27,918 bases of DNA from a virus, in IMG/VR virus record IMGVR_UViG_3300014838_000066, positions 1-27,918 of that record. One strand, 5' to 3'. A program made the position numbers and the translations under genes. The notes under the pieces were generated by a model. That model searched no databases. It worked only from the letters and a program-made list of their open reading frames with translations, and was not told the origin of the DNA. This document shows, piece by piece, positions 1,193 through 20,097 of this stretch. Every line of letters starts with the position of its first letter. Position 1 is the stretch's first letter.

Positions 1193-1411
1193 AGGTTCAT
1201 TGAAAGCTGGTGGCACAGGTAGAAATATCCGCGCTATCGGAAGGGATAGCAATTCCTAAAAGAAGCAAAGACGTTATCGTAGTTAGGTACGGAACGTAGA
1301 TGTCATCCTATAGAGCATCTTTTATCTGTAACTCTCATGGAATAAAAGCCCGACGCAATAGGTTCACCGTTGCAAAGGTGAAATCCAAAGCCATCAGCTC
1401 TCAGTGAATCG
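1193..1411 (+). ncRNA. Structured RNA-A (leader or free ncRNA) with closed 5'-3' stem
   Basis: This stretch has no supported ORF. Bases 1194-1214 pair with 1390-1410 over 21 positions: 20 pairs including three G-U, and one A-C mismatch (1204/1400). Further helices can be read by eye: 1215-1224 with 1320-1329 (10 pairs), hairpin 1233-1238/1245-1250 with a GGAAGG loop whose GGAA can pair with TTCC at 1253-1256, CCTAA 1255-1259 with TTAGG 1283-1287, and hairpin 1363-1368/1377-1382. No U-run terminator follows, so the RNA may remain as the 5' leader of the YopX operon mRNA or be processed. It shares overall design and the 9-mer CGTAGTTAG (1278-1286) with RNA-B. The class is not recognised; folding was not computed. 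Confidence 0.6.
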
Positions 1412-1433
1412 AGAATAATTAACTAATAAAACC

Positions 1434-1886
1434 ATGAGAAAGATAATGTTTCGCGCGTGGTATAAACGAAAGAAATATATGGTTACGACAAGCTCTGTAG
1501 CTTGTGATTTATCTAAGTGGGGATATAGCGATGATTATATTCTTATGCAATTTACGGGAATGCTCGACCAATCTGGCAAAGAGATTTACGAAGGAGATAT
1601 TGTAAAAATAGCCAACATAAAAGTTTGGTCAGAAGATTTTATAAAACCAATGAAAGGGACGAGTGGTGTAGTGAAATGGATAAACGAGGGAGGGGAATAT
1701 TGGATGGATTTAATTTGGGATAAAAACAAAAAAGAAGCATCGAGGGAATTTTTGAGGCTTGTGGGGGATGAATGGAATCAGGAAATGGACGAAATTGAAT
1801 CAAATAATTTACTTGTTATCGGTAATATTTACGCGAATCCTGAGTTAGTCGCCGAGCAAAAAACAAAAAAGAAAACAAAGAAATGA
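1434..1886 (+). CDS. YopX family phage protein
   Basis: Matches the YopX family, common in phages of many bacteria and of unknown function. Its usual signatures are visible: an N-terminal FRAWY block (residues 6-10), the core LMQFTGMLDQSGKEIYEGDIV (starting near residue 37, with the EGDIV turn), a beta-rich middle, and the C-terminal VIGNIYANPEL signature. The length of 150 is normal. It is the first gene behind RNA-A; the start codon lies 23 bases after the RNA's terminal stem in a leader reading AACTAATAAAACC, with no Shine-Dalgarno motif. The C-terminus ends in a Lys-rich tail. Confidence 0.85.
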   Translation: MRKIMFRAWYKRKKYMVTTSSVACDLSKWGYSDDYILMQFTGMLDQSGKEIYEGDIVKIANIKVWSEDFIKPMKGTSGVVKWINEGGEYWMDLIWDKNKKEASREFLRLVGDEWNQEMDEIESNNLLVIGNIYANPELVAEQKTKKKTKK

Positions 1887-2182
1887 TGAAAGGAAACGAG
1901 AGCGATTGTATTTGTGCCAAGACGAACGGAAAACATACAAGGCGATGCGATGCTTATCGGTTAAGAGAATTTGGATTAAAAGCCGCTGCGATAAAAATCG
2001 AGCAAGACGAATTTATTGAGGACTCGGAAAGGTTTTTGATATGGATGCACGCCCGCGTGGGTTATGAAAAACTTCCAATGAAAACCTATATGGACGGCGA
2101 ACCTTATTTTTCATCTGAAGGCGCAGAAATGAGTTTGAGAGAATTTTTGCGGCGGGAAAAAGAATTAACAGAAAAGCTATGA
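1883..2182 (+). CDS. Hypothetical protein with N-terminal Cys motif
   Basis: Not recognised. A 99-residue protein with three closely spaced Cys (residues 9, 11 and 22) in a CIC...RCD pattern near the N-terminus, which could bind a metal, followed by a mixed helical region with an aromatic-rich centre. Its start overlaps the YopX stop (ATGA) and its own stop overlaps the next start, so it is part of a coupled operon. A second ATG directly follows the first; either could be used. Confidence 0.6.
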   Translation: MMKGNESDCICAKTNGKHTRRCDAYRLREFGLKAAAIKIEQDEFIEDSERFLIWMHARVGYEKLPMKTYMDGEPYFSSEGAEMSLREFLRREKELTEKL

Positions 2183-2499
2183 CTTCCCTCCGTTCCACCC
2201 TCCTATCCCTCATCCTTTCAAAAGGCATTCTCTCTTACGGCGAAATGTGCGAATACGTGAATGAACAAGAATACAAGATCGCCACCGCCGAACGTCGCCT
2301 AAGAGGACTTTGCGCCCCGATAAGTGAAAAAGGTTTACCACAAACTCCTCTCATTCGCCCCGTAATGAAAATAGGAAAAAGGAGAGGAGGGGAATATATC
2401 GCCGCGTGGGAAAAAATACCGGAAAACGAAAAAGTCGAAACAAGAGAAATCCGAGGCTTCGTAACTATAAACGGGGAAAGAATACAAATATTCAAATGA
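2179..2499 (+). CDS. Hypothetical protein, possible winged-helix fold
   Basis: Family not recognised. The 106-residue chain begins with helical segments (LLSLILSKGILSYGEM, then an arginine-rich helix TAERRLRGL) followed by a beta-hairpin-like part (GKRRGGEYIAAW), an arrangement seen in winged-helix DNA-binding domains; a second beta segment (ETREIRGFVTINGERIQIF) ends the protein. A DNA-binding role is inference only. It is coupled to its neighbours by 4-base overlaps at both ends, directly upstream of the adenine methyltransferase. Confidence 0.6.
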   Translation: MTSLRSTLLSLILSKGILSYGEMCEYVNEQEYKIATAERRLRGLCAPISEKGLPQTPLIRPVMKIGKRRGGEYIAAWEKIPENEKVETREIRGFVTINGERIQIFK

Positions 2500-3059
2500 A
2501 AAAGTATCAGATAATCTATGCCGATCCGCCGTGGAGTTATCAAAATGGAGGTGTTCCACAAGCCGGAGTAAATGCACAATATCCGACAATGACGCTCGCT
2601 GATATAAAAGCGTTGCCGGTAGGAGATATAGCCGATAATCCCTCTGTTCTTCTTTTGTGGGCGACATTTCCACAATTAGCGGAGGCATTGGAAGTTATCA
2701 AGGCGTGGGGCTTTGAGTATAAGACACTCGGCTTTTCGTGGCTTAAAACCAACAAAGACGGCTCGCCATTTTTTGGAGTGGGATACTATGCGAAATCGAA
2801 CCAAGAGGTGTGCTTGCTCGGCGTAAAAGGCAAAGCCCATTCACTCGTAAAGAGCAATTCTGTTTCATCGGTTCTTATCACGGGAAGAACGAAGCATAGC
2901 GAAAAACCAGAAATCGCTCGCACAAAAATCGTTGAACTGTTTGGCAATCTTCCCCGCATAGAACTTTTCGCCCGCCAAAAAACAGAAGGGTGGGATGTAT
3001 GGGGAAACGAATGTAAAAGTGATATAGAATTAACCTCTAAAAGAAAAGAAAAAAACTAA
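2496..3059 (+). CDS. MT-A70-type adenine-N6 DNA methyltransferase
   Basis: Transfers a methyl group from S-adenosylmethionine to adenine N6, here most likely in phage DNA. The catalytic motif DPPW is at residues 10-13 (preceded by IIYA). The conserved C-terminal signature RTKHSEKP (131-138), the PRIELFAR strand and the GWDVWGNE end are typical of phage and bacterial MT-A70 proteins. The length of 187 is normal. The start at 2496 is chosen because it overlaps the upstream stop (ATGA) and places DPPW at the usual distance; an upstream ATG at 2406 would add 30 low-complexity basic residues inside the previous gene. No matching restriction enzyme is nearby, so protection against host restriction is a plausible role (inference). 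Confidence 0.88.
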   Translation: MKKYQIIYADPPWSYQNGGVPQAGVNAQYPTMTLADIKALPVGDIADNPSVLLLWATFPQLAEALEVIKAWGFEYKTLGFSWLKTNKDGSPFFGVGYYAKSNQEVCLLGVKGKAHSLVKSNSVSSVLITGRTKHSEKPEIARTKIVELFGNLPRIELFARQKTEGWDVWGNECKSDIELTSKRKEKN

Positions 3060-3060
3060 C

Positions 3061-3231
3061 ATGGACTTCTTTGGAATAGAAAAAGCATTGCGCTTTCAGG
3101 AAGAAATGAGAAATTGGCGGCAGAAAACCGATAAACATTTCTATGAAGCTTTTAAGAAATCGAATGAAGAAAACGAAGCGTGGATAAATGAAATCTTAAA
3201 AAGAAATAAAAAAAGATCACTAACGCATTAA
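3061..3231 (+). CDS. Small hypothetical protein (56 aa)
   Basis: An ATG one base after the methyltransferase stop opens a 56-codon frame beginning MDFFGIEKAL and ending RSLTH. It is highly charged and predicted to be one long amphipathic helix (FQEEMRNWRQKTDKHFYEAF). The leader AAAAAACTAAC before the ATG matches that of other genes here. Function unknown. It fills the gap between two methyltransferase genes. Confidence 0.55.
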   Translation: MDFFGIEKALRFQEEMRNWRQKTDKHFYEAFKKSNEENEAWINEILKRNKKRSLTH

Positions 3232-3243
3232 CAAAAACCATTG

Positions 3244-3909
3244 ATGAAGATTCTTAATTTATATGCAAATATCGGAGGCAATCGGAAGTTGTGGGGCAAT
3301 CAACACGAAATCACGGCGATTGAACTTAACCCTAAGGTCGCAGAAATATATAAAGACTTTTGGCCTAACGATACGGTTATTGTCGCAGATGCACACCAAT
3401 ACTTATTAGACCATTACAAAGAGTTTGATTTTATTTGGTCATCGCCTCCATGTCCTACCCATTCGAAGGTTGGTAGATTGCGAGCGTTCAATGAACATAA
3501 CAAATCTACGGGTCAGTATTCACCGGCGAAATATCCCGATGTGGCTTTGTATCAAGAGATATTACTTTTGGAAGGCTATTTTAAGGGGAATTGGTGCGTA
3601 GAGAACGTAGTGGCTTGGTATAAACCTTTAATACCTCCTACGCAATTAGGCGGTCATTGGTTGTGGTCGAACTTTGGTATTTCAGATAGGAAATTTGATA
3701 TAAGGCAAATTAACACCAAAGGCAAAAACGATGCACAAATTAGATCAAAGAAATTGGGTTTTGATTTATCGAAATATACTGGCATTGATAAACGATTGGC
3801 ATTAAGGGATTGCACCGAACCAGAATTAGGCAAACATATTCTCGATTGCGCCATGAACTCCCCATCACTTTTCGCCGCCCCAAAAGAAAAACAAAAAGGT
3901 CTATTCTAA
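3244..3909 (+). CDS. C5-cytosine DNA methyltransferase-like protein
   Basis: Resembles the small DNA cytosine-5 methyltransferases encoded by phages. Motif I for S-adenosylmethionine is LNLYANIGG (residues 4-12), an acidic residue follows in AIELNP (25-30), motif IV carries the catalytic Cys in SSPPCPTHS (66-74, Cys70), and motif VI is the ENV triplet (120-122). The 221 residues are short compared with most C5 enzymes (300-400), so the target-recognition region must be minimal or supplied differently. The ATG at 3244 is preferred over the TTG at 3241. It follows the MT-A70 gene, giving two base-modifying enzymes in one operon. Confidence 0.8.
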   Translation: MKILNLYANIGGNRKLWGNQHEITAIELNPKVAEIYKDFWPNDTVIVADAHQYLLDHYKEFDFIWSSPPCPTHSKVGRLRAFNEHNKSTGQYSPAKYPDVALYQEILLLEGYFKGNWCVENVVAWYKPLIPPTQLGGHWLWSNFGISDRKFDIRQINTKGKNDAQIRSKKLGFDLSKYTGIDKRLALRDCTEPELGKHILDCAMNSPSLFAAPKEKQKGLF

Positions 3910-3946
3910 GCCATCGCAGGAAAAAGAATTGAAATCTATAAATAAC

Positions 3947-5275
3947 ATGAATGAAATAAACTTAGGCTCGATAAAATTACCAATAAACGCCGCGACTAAG
4001 AGCTTTGCAATCCTTGCAAAACGTGGAGCTGGGAAGACCTATCTCGGCGGAGTAATGGCAGAAGAGTTCTTTAAGAATAATATACCTTTTGTTGTATTTG
4101 ACCCTATTGATGTGTGGTGGGGGCTTCGATTTGATAAAAATGGTAAGGATAAGGGTTTGCCCGTGGTTGTTTTTGGGCTTGAACATGCTGATATTCTATT
4201 AGACAGGGATATGGGGCCGGAAATTGCGCGCGCTATCGTAAAAGAAAATGTATCATGTGTCATATCAACATTTGGAATGCCGAAGGTTGGGGCAAGGCAC
4301 TTAATCGCGGAATTCGCGGAAACGCTTTTGAACATCAACAACACTCCCCGCCATGTGTTCATCGAGGAGGCGCATGAGTACGTCCCCCAGAGGGTCGTAG
4401 GGGGCATGAGTACGGTATTCTCCCGCGTGGAATCTCTTGTTACTATGGGAAGGAATCGTGGTATCGGAGTAACAATGCTCAACCAGCGTGCGGCGACACT
4501 TAACAAGGATGTGCTTACCCAGATTGATACACTTCTTGCCCTCCGCTCATTAGGCCCACAGGACAGGAAGGCACTCGCTGAATGGGTGGAAGCGCATGGT
4601 ACGGAAGATAATAAAAAGTTCGATGACTTTATTAAAGCACTTCCCTCCATTCCGACAGGGGAAGGGTATATCTGGTCGCCAGAATTCCTTGGCGTGTTTG
4701 ACAAGTTCAAGATCAGGAAGCGCGAAACACTCCACCCTGACCGAGAAAAGATAGGCAAAGACTTTGAGATGCCGGAACTCACACAGACTGATGTGCAGTC
4801 ATTCATCTCAAAGTTTTCCAGTTCGCATTCTTCCACGGCACAAAAGGTAAAAGGACAGAGCAAGCAAATACCTCAAATAATTCAACCTATTGTCGAGAAC
4901 GAAACACTTATTCAAGTTCGTAATCAATACGAATCGCAACTAATTCAAAAAGATGGCGAGATCCACCGATTAAATGCCATCATAGAAAACATCAGGGGAT
5001 TGGTAGGCGGCACGCCACAACAAACGACCTATCTTCCTCTTTCGAACGATGTGGTGAGTATGTGGAAGAATAAATTAGGGCCATCATCTTTAGCGACACG
5101 CATCCTTAATTTTCTAGTAGAAAATAATCATCGTGCGTTTTCAAGGGAACAGATTGCACTTGCGCTTGGAGTTTCGGCGAAAGGAGGATATATCAACAAC
5201 GAATGGGGAAGATTGATGCGTACGAGTACGGTGGTAAAGGATGGCTCAATGTATAAATTAAATCCTAATCTTTAG
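3947..5275 (+). CDS. HerA-like (DUF87/FtsK-HerA class) ATPase
   Basis: A hexameric-type P-loop ATPase of the HerA class. Walker A is AKRGAGKT (residues 24-31), Walker B is HVFIEEAHE (136-144) with the acidic pair, and the GRNRGIGVTMLNQ block (168-180) followed by TQIDTLLALR matches the sensor and arginine-finger region of HerA proteins. A short coiled segment precedes a C-terminal winged-helix-like domain (about 370-440). Cellular HerA works with NurA in DNA end processing; no NurA is nearby, so the partner is unknown. ATG at 3947 (leader AAATAAC) is preferred over a TTG at 3929, which adds six residues. Confidence 0.8.
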   Translation: MNEINLGSIKLPINAATKSFAILAKRGAGKTYLGGVMAEEFFKNNIPFVVFDPIDVWWGLRFDKNGKDKGLPVVVFGLEHADILLDRDMGPEIARAIVKENVSCVISTFGMPKVGARHLIAEFAETLLNINNTPRHVFIEEAHEYVPQRVVGGMSTVFSRVESLVTMGRNRGIGVTMLNQRAATLNKDVLTQIDTLLALRSLGPQDRKALAEWVEAHGTEDNKKFDDFIKALPSIPTGEGYIWSPEFLGVFDKFKIRKRETLHPDREKIGKDFEMPELTQTDVQSFISKFSSSHSSTAQKVKGQSKQIPQIIQPIVENETLIQVRNQYESQLIQKDGEIHRLNAIIENIRGLVGGTPQQTTYLPLSNDVVSMWKNKLGPSSLATRILNFLVENNHRAFSREQIALALGVSAKGGYINNEWGRLMRTSTVVKDGSMYKLNPNL

Positions 5276-5336
5276 TCGCACCGAAAAAAAGAGAAAAAAG
5301 TAACCCAAGAAAAAAACTAACCAATAACCAACTACT

Positions 5337-5498
5337 ATGAGATTGACCGTAGAAGAGAAACAAATCCTCTCCGCCGCCGCCACGATCAGGGCAACGCGGA
5401 TGTGGGCAAAGAGAAGCAAGAAGGATAGGGTAGCCCACGCAAAGATGATGAACCAAGCAAGTCAAAACGCAAGAAACGCCAAAAAGGTAGATAAATAG
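5337..5498 (+). CDS. Small basic hypothetical protein (53 aa)
   Basis: A 53-codon frame starting MRLTVEEKQI and ending KKVDK. It is strongly basic and Ala-rich and predicted to be helical throughout, so nucleic-acid binding is possible but unproven. The leader AACCAATAACCAACTACT has the A/C-rich character of other starts here. It is the last gene before promoter P3 and RNA-B. Confidence 0.55.
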   Translation: MRLTVEEKQILSAAATIRATRMWAKRSKKDRVAHAKMMNQASQNARNAKKVDK

Positions 5499-5525
5499 GG
5501 GTTAACTAGGCTGTGCAAAACTCGC

Positions 5526-5553
5526 TTGACACAAGCCACAGGAGGCGTATACT
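5526..5553 (+). promoter_or_regulatory. Consensus sigma70 promoter P3 for RNA-B
   Basis: A perfect TTGACA (5526-5531), a 16-base spacer and TATACT (5548-5553). The predicted start of transcription is about 5560, which is the first base of the long terminal stem of RNA-B. Confidence 0.72.
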
Positions 5554-5559
5554 GATTAC

Positions 5560-5708
5560 AGATGGTTGATTGATGGGAGTGGGGGAATGTACTTAACCCA
5601 TTCAAGGTGCGGAGTAAAATACAGACGGTAGGCGAACGTAGTTAGCAGATGGGCTAAATCGTAAAACCTTACTTCAACTCCTTGACCAGTCCCACCAGTC
5701 AATCATCT
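5560..5708 (+). ncRNA. Structured RNA-B, same architecture as RNA-A
   Basis: This stretch has no supported ORF. Bases 5560-5578 pair with 5690-5708 over 19 positions with one A-C mismatch (5573/5695) and two G-U pairs. Inside, 5593-5602 can pair with 5648-5657 (one A-C mismatch), and AAGGT at 5604-5608 within that loop can pair with ACCTT at 5666-5670 outside it, which would form an H-type pseudoknot. A competing hairpin is TTAGC 5642-5646 with GCTAA 5653-5657. The segment AGACG...CGTAGTTAG (5624-5645) recurs in RNA-A. No U-run terminator follows; the next ATG is 33 bases downstream. Class not recognised; folding not computed. Confidence 0.6.
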
Positions 5709-5740
5709 AAAAGGTCGAAACAAACAAATTAACCAAAACT

Positions 5741-10732: not shown

Positions 10733-10946
10733 ACGTTATGGAAAATCACGATGCTCAAAAGGAAACTATTTACACAAGTTTCGAGAGGTCGAGCGGAACG
10801 AGTATGGAGTCCTTGAACGGTGCGAGCGGTGCGGGCTAAGAAAGCATTTTCCACAAGATATTTCAAGCAGTAAATACCTAGAGTTTCACATCCGAGAAGT
10901 CCTACAAACAAACGACCAAATTTATTACCATGAGTACACGCGATAA
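10722..10946 (+). CDS. Small zinc-finger-like protein between groES and groEL
   Basis: A 74-residue protein with a CERCGLRKHFP knuckle in the middle and an upstream Cys11/His18 that could complete a zinc site. It overlaps the GroES-like gene by 11 bases and groEL by 17 bases, an unusual insertion into a pair that is normally adjacent. Its function is unknown. Overlap on both sides lowers certainty, but the gene would otherwise leave a 200-base gap. Confidence 0.5.
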   Translation: MLDRRYGKSRCSKGNYLHKFREVERNEYGVLERCERCGLRKHFPQDISSSKYLEFHIREVLQTNDQIYYHEYTR

Positions 10947-12528
10947 TCTCTATACGAGCGAACAGGCAAGAGAGAAGTTAATGAGCGGCATTAAACGTGC
11001 CAGTGAAGCTATTGCTATAACTATGGGTACTTCTGGTAGCAATAGTATCATTGAGGATATGCGTAATCCACAGTATTTTGTAAGTAATGACGGCGCATCA
11101 ATTTTGGAACGCATAAGGTTCGCTGACCCTATTGAGGAGTTAGGAAGAAAGATACTTTTTGAGGCTGTGGGCAGAAGTAATCGCGCGAATGGCGACGGAA
11201 GTTCTACGGCAACACTTTTGACTGCTTCTATCCTAGAGGAAGGTATGAAGCATATCGGAGAAGTCGCTCCGATGGAAATAAAAAAGAGCCTTGAAGACTG
11301 TATCCCCCTTATCGAAGAATCTCTTAAATCCCAGCGCAAAGAATTGGTGGATAAGGACGGCAATATCGACTTCAAATTACTTGAACAGACTGCTACTATC
11401 AGCGCAGAATCGGAGGAAATCGGAAAGACGATAGCTGAGATTTACAAGCATATTGGTAAAGACGGCATTATTAACTGGGAGGCGTCAAAAGATACCAAAG
11501 ACAGTTATTCCATCGGCACGGGCATCAAAATCGACGGAGCGACCTACGCTTCACGCTATATGTGCGACCAACTTCCGAACGGAGAGTATACCTATCAGGC
11601 AACCATAGAAAATCCTTTGGTTCTCCTAGCCTTCAGCAAGATAACCTCACAAGGAGAAATGGAAAAACTGGTCGGGGAATTACAGGTCCATGACGTAAAG
11701 GACTTGGTTATCTTCTGCAATGAGATGGACGCGCCGATTCTGAACAGTTTTATCCTCGCCCGCGCCCCGCAGACGCTCGGAATTAGATTTTTGGTCATCA
11801 AGATGCCTACGGTATTCAACGATTTATGGTGGGAGGACTTGGAGAAAGCATCAGGTGGAAGAATCATTAGCCCCTCATCGGGTATCAAGATGCGCGATAC
11901 CAAGATGGAGTTTTTGGGTCATTTTGGAAAGATAACCGTGAATCGTGAGGGAACGTTCATTGATGGCATACAAGATTTGACGACCCATTTGCTTGGACTC
12001 AAAGTGGACGGATCGGACGAAGCATTGGCTCGCGCGGCGAGATTAAACACAAAAACGGCTATTTATTTCGTGGGAGGACACAGCGAAAGCTCATTGGCGT
12101 ATAGAAGGCTTAAAATTGAGGACAGCATTAATTCTGCATATAGCGCATTGCACAATGGAATTGTTGCGGGAGGCGGATTAGCTCTAAAAAACGCCCGAAC
12201 GTGGGATGGCGAAACTGTAGGACAAGAGATATTAGATTATGCATTATTAACACCAATTATGCAGATTATGAGAAATGCTGGTATTGAGCATGACGTACTT
12301 TCGCAAGGGAGCGAAGAGGGATGGGACACGAGAACTAAAAAATTAGTTAATATGTTTGATGCTGGTATCGTCGATAGCTACGATGTTGTTCTCGGCGCAG
12401 TGAAGTCAGCAATCGGTGTTGCCGCAGGAGTTTTGACCGCCGGAAGTGTCGTCTTGTTGCCCCGGCAAGAGAATGACATAACCGACCAGATAGCCCAAAA
12501 AGTAGCAGGAATGATGCAACCACAATGA
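10930..12528 (+). CDS. groEL: Divergent phage chaperonin GroEL (Cpn60, group I-like)
   Basis: A 532-residue chaperonin subunit. Equatorial ATP-binding motifs are present: NDGASI (53-58, Asp54), GDGSSTAT (88-95, GroEL form GDGTTTAT), KIED (395-398, with the hydrolysis Asp at 398) and GIVAGGGLAL (410-419). The TLGPKGRN loop is changed to TMGTSGSN (31-38). The apical domain (about 190-350) is strongly divergent, and the segment before the second intermediate part is shorter than in E. coli GroEL. The C-terminus ends in AGMMQPQ rather than a GGM repeat. It likely folds a phage protein such as the capsid protein (inference). Its stop overlaps the next gene by 4 bases. Confidence 0.9.
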   Translation: MSTRDNLYTSEQAREKLMSGIKRASEAIAITMGTSGSNSIIEDMRNPQYFVSNDGASILERIRFADPIEELGRKILFEAVGRSNRANGDGSSTATLLTASILEEGMKHIGEVAPMEIKKSLEDCIPLIEESLKSQRKELVDKDGNIDFKLLEQTATISAESEEIGKTIAEIYKHIGKDGIINWEASKDTKDSYSIGTGIKIDGATYASRYMCDQLPNGEYTYQATIENPLVLLAFSKITSQGEMEKLVGELQVHDVKDLVIFCNEMDAPILNSFILARAPQTLGIRFLVIKMPTVFNDLWWEDLEKASGGRIISPSSGIKMRDTKMEFLGHFGKITVNREGTFIDGIQDLTTHLLGLKVDGSDEALARAARLNTKTAIYFVGGHSESSLAYRRLKIEDSINSAYSALHNGIVAGGGLALKNARTWDGETVGQEILDYALLTPIMQIMRNAGIEHDVLSQGSEEGWDTRTKKLVNMFDAGIVDSYDVVLGAVKSAIGVAAGVLTAGSVVLLPRQENDITDQIAQKVAGMMQPQ

Positions 12529-13254: not shown

Positions 13255-13414
13255 AAATATAGTCCTAAAATATCAATATCAGTGCGGGAAAAGGAAGTAT
13301 GTGTCTAAAAGAGATGCGGTAACAGCGAGAAATTGGTTAAGAGATGAGCGAGGCGAGGTGCTTAATGTGTATCCATGTCCAAAGTGCAAAGGGTGGCATT
13401 TGACTCATAAGTAG
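13247..13414 (+). CDS. Small zinc-knuckle protein with CPKCKGWHLT motif (55 aa)
   Basis: A 55-codon frame, MSRNIVLKYQ to HLTHK. A Cys at 13 (YQCGKRKY) and the pair PCPKCKGWHLT (43-53) match a small phage and bacterial protein type with the pattern Y-x-C-x-x-C-x-x-WHLT, in which the first residues come from a strand with a CGK turn. Zinc binding is likely; the role is unknown. The late promoter P4 begins inside its last codons. Confidence 0.65.
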   Translation: MSRNIVLKYQYQCGKRKYVSKRDAVTARNWLRDERGEVLNVYPCPKCKGWHLTHK

Positions 13415-13428
13415 ATAAGCCCTATAAT
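13400..13428 (+). promoter_or_regulatory. Consensus sigma70 promoter P4 for the packaging/structural operon
   Basis: TTGACT (13400-13405), a 17-base spacer and perfect TATAAT (13423-13428). The -35 box lies in the last codons of the preceding gene. The predicted +1 (about 13435) is next to the A of the terS ATG (13436), so the terS transcript would be leaderless or have a 1-base leader. Confidence 0.72.
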
Positions 13429-13435
13429 ATGGGTA

Positions 13436-13987
13436 ATGGCGGCGACAATAAAGCAAAAGCAGGTTTTCAAAAAAGCACTAAAAGGCACTCCAATAAGTAA
13501 AGCGATGGTTGAGGTAGGATATTCAGAGAAATCGAATGTCGCTACGCTCACTAGAACTCAAGGATGGCAGGATTTGGTTAATAGGCATATATCCGACGAG
13601 AAGTTAGCGAAGGCACATGGAGAGCTTTTAGATCAAACGGAAGTCAATTATTTTGTGTTTCCGTCTAAGATGGAAGATGATGAGATAATTGAACACGTTA
13701 GACAAGCTGGGTTTGAAACGATTGTCGTTAGGAAGTCTATGCAAGGTAAATTAGCTTTTTATTCGATAATCAATGTGCAAGCTAGAAAATCGGCACTTGA
13801 TATGGGTTATAAGCTAAAAGATAGGTATGCCGCGGAAAAGCATATGAACATGAATGTCGAGGTCGAGGCATTACCAGTAATTAAAGCACTTACTGAACGA
13901 TTGAATGCAATATACAGCGGAGATGGTGTCCCAGGCGATGGAATTGAGTCCGGCATTGTGGGCGATAAAGCACAAGATAAAGAATGA
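13436..13987 (+). CDS. terS: Terminase small subunit
   Basis: Recognises phage DNA and delivers it to the large terminase for packaging. The N-terminal helix-turn-helix (QKQVFKKALKGTPISKAMVEVGYS, near residues 7-30) is the usual DNA-binding part of such proteins, and the C-terminal segment SALDMGYKLKDRYAAEKH is commonly seen in Terminase_2-like small subunits. The length of 183 is typical. It lies directly upstream of and overlaps the large subunit. ATG at 13436 is chosen; an ATG at 13429 is in another frame. Confidence 0.8.
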   Translation: MAATIKQKQVFKKALKGTPISKAMVEVGYSEKSNVATLTRTQGWQDLVNRHISDEKLAKAHGELLDQTEVNYFVFPSKMEDDEIIEHVRQAGFETIVVRKSMQGKLAFYSIINVQARKSALDMGYKLKDRYAAEKHMNMNVEVEALPVIKALTERLNAIYSGDGVPGDGIESGIVGDKAQDKE

Positions 13988-19759: not shown

Positions 19760-19957
19760 ATGAGTAAAAAAGAAGCAAAATCGGAAGCATTGGAAAAGCG
19801 GCTTATCAACAACATCGGCTATTGCCCAGAGTGCAAGAAAAAGCACCCGAAAGGGAAGCATGATAAGGAAAGCAAAAGTGAAGAATATCAGGAAAGCAGG
19901 AAGGAAAGCGAAAAGAAAATGAATAAGCGGGAAGAGAACGGCGATCAAGAAGATTAA
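19760..19957 (+). CDS. Small charged protein with CPECKKKH motif (65 aa)
   Basis: The N-terminal KSEALEKRL resembles the KALEKKK motif of the genes at 17896 and 18534. Next comes GYCPECKKKH, a half zinc finger, then a long charged, probably disordered Lys/Glu tail. Function unknown. Confidence 0.55.
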   Translation: MSKKEAKSEALEKRLINNIGYCPECKKKHPKGKHDKESKSEEYQESRKESEKKMNKREENGDQED

Positions 19958-19968
19958 CTAATAAAACT

Positions 19969-20097
19969 ATGAGCAAAATCGAACTTAAAATAGACGACGT
20001 GGTGGTGTTCTCGAACGAAGTTGAGCCAGTTCCGGCTGAACCCGTGGTAGAACCTGTTGCGCCCGTAGAGGAAACACCAGTAGAACCGACAGCGTAG
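19969..20097 (+). CDS. Pro/Glu/Val-rich mini-protein (42 aa)
   Basis: A 42-codon frame starting MSKIELKIDD and containing a PVPAEPVVEPVAPVEETPVEP-type extended segment (about residues 20-40). Such Pro-Glu segments form stiff, extended chains. The leader AACTAATAAAACT matches other genes, which supports its reality. Function unknown; it lies before the scaffold gene. Confidence 0.5.
   Translation: MSKIELKIDDVVVFSNEVEPVPAEPVVEPVAPVEETPVEPTA

Follow-up and report, generated by a model that had tools for sequence, protein, structure and literature searches.

Two operons in the window (the whole stretch analysed here, a virus record of 27,918 nt, or 27.9 kb) appear to open with a long structured RNA, and the question is what such RNAs do at the head of a phage transcript. 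The original prediction described both, RNA-A and RNA-B on the + strand, as RNAs closed by long 5'/3' stems, and this description was confirmed by fold energies and by a stem scan against shuffled sequence. RNA-A folded at −72.1 kcal/mol (shuffles −48.5 ± 4.2; z = −5.70) and RNA-B at −52.8 kcal/mol (shuffles −35.9 ± 3.9; z = −4.32), with 0 of 200 shuffles as good in either case, as expected if both fold better than shuffled sequence. Across 60 dinucleotide shuffles of the window, stems scoring at least 41 were expected at 0.07 per shuffled window, both strands together; the real + strand carries exactly two (1194–1410 and 5560–5708), both intergenic.

Neither RNA could be placed in a named class, as had been anticipated: against Rfam 15, RNA-A gave no match even at E = 10, and RNA-B gave chance-level matches only, none above the gathering threshold. 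DNA-level searches of named phages found no sequence similarity to either RNA, and a tRNA search of the window found none. Genome matches came solely from contigs in MAGs, one of them assigned to Ca. Jorgensenbacteria. The phage also encodes a peptide deformylase (86–550; Pfam E = 2.9e−19) and a Cpn60/TCP-1 chaperonin homologue (10930–12528; Pfam E = 4e−30), the latter with homologues in many related contigs. The parts of the two loci, read from the sequence and from base-pair tables, are as follows.

1158–1186, +: RNA-A promoter, TTGCAA (1158–1163), 17-nt spacer, TAGTAT (1181–1186), extended TGn; 8/12 hexamer match
1194–1214, +: RNA-A 5' arm of the terminal helix
1195–1200, +: RNA-A wobble motif, G1195.U1409 and U1200.G1404 (base pairing and helix alignment)
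1204, +: RNA-A mid-helix mismatch A1204.C1400 (pair 11)
1204, +: RNA-A predicted 5' processing point, by analogy with T5 RNAIV; putative mature RNA ~1204–1401
1215–1389, +: RNA-A interior, 175 nt; z = −1.66
1390–1410, +: RNA-A 3' arm
1411–1433, +: A-rich leader before a YopX-family gene (1434–1886)
5526–5553, +: RNA-B promoter, TTGACA-16-TATACT; 11/12 consensus match
5560–5582, +: RNA-B 5' arm of the terminal helix
5565–5570, +: RNA-B wobble motif, G5565.U5703 and U5570.G5698 (base pairing and helix alignment)
5573, +: RNA-B mid-helix mismatch A5573.C5695 (pair 14)
5573, +: RNA-B predicted 5' processing point, by analogy with T5 RNAIV; putative mature RNA ~5573–5696
5583–5685, +: RNA-B interior, 103 nt; z = −0.29
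5686–5708, +: RNA-B 3' arm
5708–5725, +: conserved motif CTAAAAGGYCGAAAMAAA, directly 3' of the RNA-B helix, common to L035 and L097
5741–5983, +: first gene 3' of RNA-B; a homologue (43% identity) follows the L097 RNA

Several details of the predicted architecture needed adjustment. The sigma70-type promoter proposed for RNA-B stands, and that of RNA-A is weaker than claimed, lying below the threshold of the promoter scanner and being weak by consensus, with an extended −10. Predicted starts (~1192–1194 and ~5560) place both stems at the beginning of their transcripts, an arrangement that does not extend to several of the relatives described below, in which a leader of ~10–25 nt, often boxA-like, lies 5' of the stem; the opening bases of the RNA-A 5' arm, GTTCATTGAAA, are boxA-like too, with one mismatch. 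No terminator-like site adjoins either RNA, in agreement with the prediction. The RNA-A stem comprises 21 positions (1194–1214 with 1390–1410), its sole mismatch being the A.C; that of RNA-B comprises 23 (5560–5582 with 5686–5708) and has a G.G at pair 20 in addition to its A.C. Once the stem was removed, interior z values were weak, which makes the multibranched core a model rather than a finding. As for the shared segment AGACG..CGTAGTTAG, CGTAGTTAG occurs exactly only at the two RNAs in the window and is absent in the relatives checked; the resemblance may be due to chance.

A-rich leaders precede many window genes, with no obvious Shine-Dalgarno sequence, and a near-identical A-rich stretch (~ATTAACTAATAAAACYATGAG) is found before two different genes (1408–1438 and 19944–19973). 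A 183-aa ORF that precedes the large terminase gene has its ATG 7 nt past the end of another strong promoter (13400–13436, TTGACT-17-TATAAT), and its transcript is possibly leaderless.

The stems had been described as unrelated in sequence, and this did not survive alignment: placed in register, GGUUCAUUGA of RNA-A and GGUUGAUUGA of RNA-B are one helix with a C-G/G-C swap. The shared pattern, 5'-GG-N4-UU-3' opposite 5'-AG-N4-UC-3', places four variable Watson-Crick pairs between a G.U and a U.G, and lies in the outer half of both helices. Both RNAs combine this motif with a terminal helix of 17–24 positions around ~100–220 nt, outside genes, and with an A.C mismatch further in, at pair 11 in RNA-A and pair 14 in RNA-B.

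Relatives were gathered by terminase, NinG and HerA ATPase searches, which returned related and unrelated viral contigs, several of them fragments; missing parts of several contigs were added, and contigs were scanned for long 5'/3' stems outside genes. The same plan was found in L035, L097, L018, L038, L100, L054, L056, L108 and L046. The arm pattern of RNA-B and L035 further led to a tandem pair of RNAs in L158, which comes from a phage whose terminase is different; this pair and the L018_2 member were located with patterns derived from other members. L097 appears to be orthologous to the RNA-B locus, since the ORF that follows is homologous to window ORF 5741 and CTAAAAGGYCGAAA comes after the helix; L035 has the same downstream motif as both. 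Outside the window, CTAAAAGGYCGAAAMAAA was found only in L035, L097 and one unrelated contig (L235). Searches via ORF 5741 yielded only L097, terminase relatives of the L158 phage held no more of the RNAs, and HerA ATPase relatives showed no synteny. In 380 genomes from the phylum of the Jorgensenbacteria MAG, the arm pattern gave nine matches, 0 with an extended helix, and a gene-content search for a dedicated partner protein found none specific to RNA carriers. L036 (4774–4962, −) and L038 (4928–5107, −) contain a second homologous pair of structured leaders, closed by long stems whose sequence differs (..GGGCTG/CGGCTCTGGC..); each leader runs up to the start codon and has a T-run hairpin before it.

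An alignment of 16 helices gave a covariation score of 0.900, compared with 0.205 after shuffling, as well as 76 double changes versus 22, 92.9% paired cells and changes on both sides at 12 of 14 pairs; sliding the register dropped covariation to ~0.2 or below. This upholds the proposal of selection on RNA structure. Apart from the fixed motif, the helices are nearly unconstrained in sequence. The wobble pairs G.U and U.G are both present in 13 of the 16, the remainder having C-G at the U.G position; the L018 and L054 helices bear GUUGGUU/AGCCAAU. In a list of 27 non-coding helices, compiled without using the wobble feature and including the two arm-pattern-derived L158 RNAs, a U.G followed a G.U at offset 5 in twelve cases and at any other offset in at most one, against a flat distribution of offsets in 61 coding-region helices. 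Shuffling wobble positions within 17 helices (20,000 trials) gave 1.1 on average and at most 6, versus 13 observed. Because a G.U pair becomes A.C on the opposite strand, its conservation indicates an RNA structure on the stated strand rather than a DNA palindrome, and rules out a DNA inverted repeat or transposon ends. The mid-helix mismatch recurs at pairs 11–15, mostly with C on the 3' side and most often as A.C; it is missing from three of the 16 aligned helices (L054, L018_5 and L038_2) and also from L038_3, and in L100 it lies at pair 3. We are confident that these RNAs form a real family, one that is scattered patchily among phages, measures ~100–220 nt and is defined by its terminal helix rather than its interior.

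The contexts of the members bear on what the family does. In L018, a non-coding operon (4372–5165) runs from a promoter through several closed-stem RNAs to a tRNA-Met and a terminator-like site; the tRNA-Met (CAT; 5038–5135), whose 5' leader and 3' trailer lengthen the acceptor stem to 18 positions, ends the RNA array. Three units stand in tandem in L038 and two in L158, and a tRNA lies 53 nt upstream of the L054 RNA. Members are thus not always leaders: tandem units lie away from the transcription start, and the tRNA and terminator-like site come last in the L018 array. On the same grounds, none of the three leader-type roles originally offered (antiterminator, protective 5' leader, ligand-sensing leader) holds as a general explanation. 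In statistics computed after the pattern had been noticed, two elements recurred 5' of the first helix: a boxA-like GTTCTTTGAAA, allowing up to two mismatches, in 6 of 13 loci versus 1.3% of random windows, and a DnaA-box-like TTATCCACA (0–1 mismatch, within 110 nt) in 7 of 13 (L035, L018, L100, L108, L038, L056 and L089) versus 1.5%. Among genomes of the class to which the Jorgensenbacteria MAG belongs, a few 16S leaders have similar elements, a likeness in sequence that is compatible with a link but not proof of one.

The boxA-like elements near the start, together with the position of both window RNAs at predicted transcription starts heading operons, are what an antiterminator of the HK022 put or nut/boxA type would display, in which a leader at the head of an early operon binds RNA polymerase or Nus factors and permits read-through. 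We nevertheless regard this as unlikely for the family, given that several members can share one transcript away from its start, that the L018 array itself ends at a terminator-like site, and that the conserved feature is an outer helix rather than a hairpin pair. A put-like antiterminator is possible for RNA-A and RNA-B themselves, and would leave the tandem and tRNA-linked members unexplained. Equally at odds with the L018 units, which precede other RNAs rather than genes, is a 5' protective structure or processing stem that stabilises only the downstream mRNA around an interior without a role. Such a role would fit a helix at the transcript start followed by an A-rich leader and a gene, and an RNA-B interior no more stable than its shuffles; over 17 members, however, interiors of 69–175 nt have a mean z of −1.55, and we consider it quite improbable. 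We give hardly any credence to riboswitch-like, ligand-sensing leaders: location before operons and the downstream gene shared by the RNA-B and L097 RNAs are in their favour, against which stand the tandem and tRNA-linked units, interiors with no common element visible, and no expression platform or terminator.

The fourth role originally offered, a processed small RNA, is the one supported by the family contexts and by a likeness to stable RNAs of phage T5, with the processing step itself inferred from that likeness. When 48 kb of T5 were scanned for closed stems (span 85–200), the top two were exactly annotated stable RNAs III and IV. By the record annotation, both RNAs end within the stem, RNAIII being trimmed by 8 and 6 nt (2-nt 3' overhang) and RNAIV by 13 and 12 nt (1-nt), and the first base of RNAIV is the A of the A.C mismatch (pair 14). 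The window RNAs accordingly resemble annotated stable RNAs, and their mismatch becomes a plausible cut site. RNAIV-like sequence occurs in 404 phage records; the five diverged T5-like phages compared keep the G.U-bearing outer half and have a mismatch at pair 14 or 15, its letters varying.

On balance we favour the view that the family members are small stable RNAs, released from early transcripts when a double-strand-specific endonuclease of the RNase III type cuts at the mismatch in mid-stem. The terminal helix, about two turns long, would serve as a processing handle: the enzyme would read the outer half and cut at the mismatch, freeing a stable RNA that keeps a short helix at its ends (~1204–1401 and ~5573–5696 in the window) and separating it from its neighbours, be they another such RNA, a tRNA or a downstream mRNA with an A-rich leader. 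The assignment to RNase III is suggested by geometry: a 12-bp half-site suffices for single-strand cutting by the E. coli enzyme (PMC8708148), close to the 10–14 pairs found outside the mismatch in most members. The boxA-like element that some transcripts carry near their start, in common with rRNA operons, may help against Rho on untranslated RNA.

An alternative with a protein partner is suggested by L089, which carries a unit with a G.U and an A.C at +8 and, beyond it, closed-stem RNAs whose stems are of another, Y-like type. Positions 2678–4808 take in a cluster of closed-stem RNAs, one of which has a T-arm before a D-arm and a match to YrlA below the gathering threshold (36.6 bits, E = 2.6e−6), and a Ro60 (TROVE) gene after them; we read this as a phage Y RNA-Ro60 cassette. 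By extension, the helix of the whole family might bind a Ro60-type protein and carry variable effector modules. This is very unlikely, as TROVE was found in 1 of 43 records searched, the Y-type stems of L089 are patterned differently, and the window RNAs have no Y RNA match. More speculatively, a single factor of wide distribution, from host or phage, could recognise the G.U–four pairs–U.G helix. Phage RNAs that are otherwise unrelated, possibly including T5 RNAIV, would then belong to one system for processing or RNP formation whose effector modules are interchangeable, the phage equivalent of Y RNAs; we advance this tentatively. To our knowledge, phage stable RNAs beside tRNAs are annotated without function in T4 and T5 and are mostly unannotated elsewhere. 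With a defined helix signature, such RNAs can be found by computation in any phage, and processing sites predicted to the nucleotide.

Several known systems are comparable. The HK022 put RNA consists of two short hairpins; the family is alike in that a structured RNA opens an early phage transcript, and differs in its long terminal helix, variable interior and frequent tandem arrangement. The T4 RNAs rnaC and rnaD are likewise small stable RNAs adjoining tRNAs, but were rejected as members since they have neither a 20-bp terminal helix nor the wobble motif. Y RNA and YrlA with Ro60 share the principle of paired ends forming a helix that carries a variable module, and adjoin related RNAs in L089; their stem pattern is different, and membership of the window RNAs was dismissed because they have no match to the YrlA covariance model (RF02553) and the window record has no TROVE gene. 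rRNA operons pair boxA with a leader-trailer helix of >17 bp that is cut by RNase III (PMC10250234), and resemble the family in the boxA-like element near the start, the long 5'/3' helix and a transcript with tRNAs; here, however, the RNAs are small, there is no rRNA, and boxA is a sequence resemblance only. Like T5 RNAIII and RNAIV, which have a terminal helix of 20–22 positions and measure ~100 nt, the window RNAs have a ~20-position terminal helix, in their case around roughly 100–200 nt. RNAIII is without both the wobble motif and a mismatch. In RNAIV, a G.U close to the outer end is followed five pairs later by C-G, with no U.G, and the one A.C mismatch lies at +11 from the G.U rather than +8/+9. 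Both are labelled in the AY543070 record 'stable RNA with unknown functions'. They sit among tRNA genes, as the window RNAs do not, but the relatives in L018 and L054 have tRNAs.
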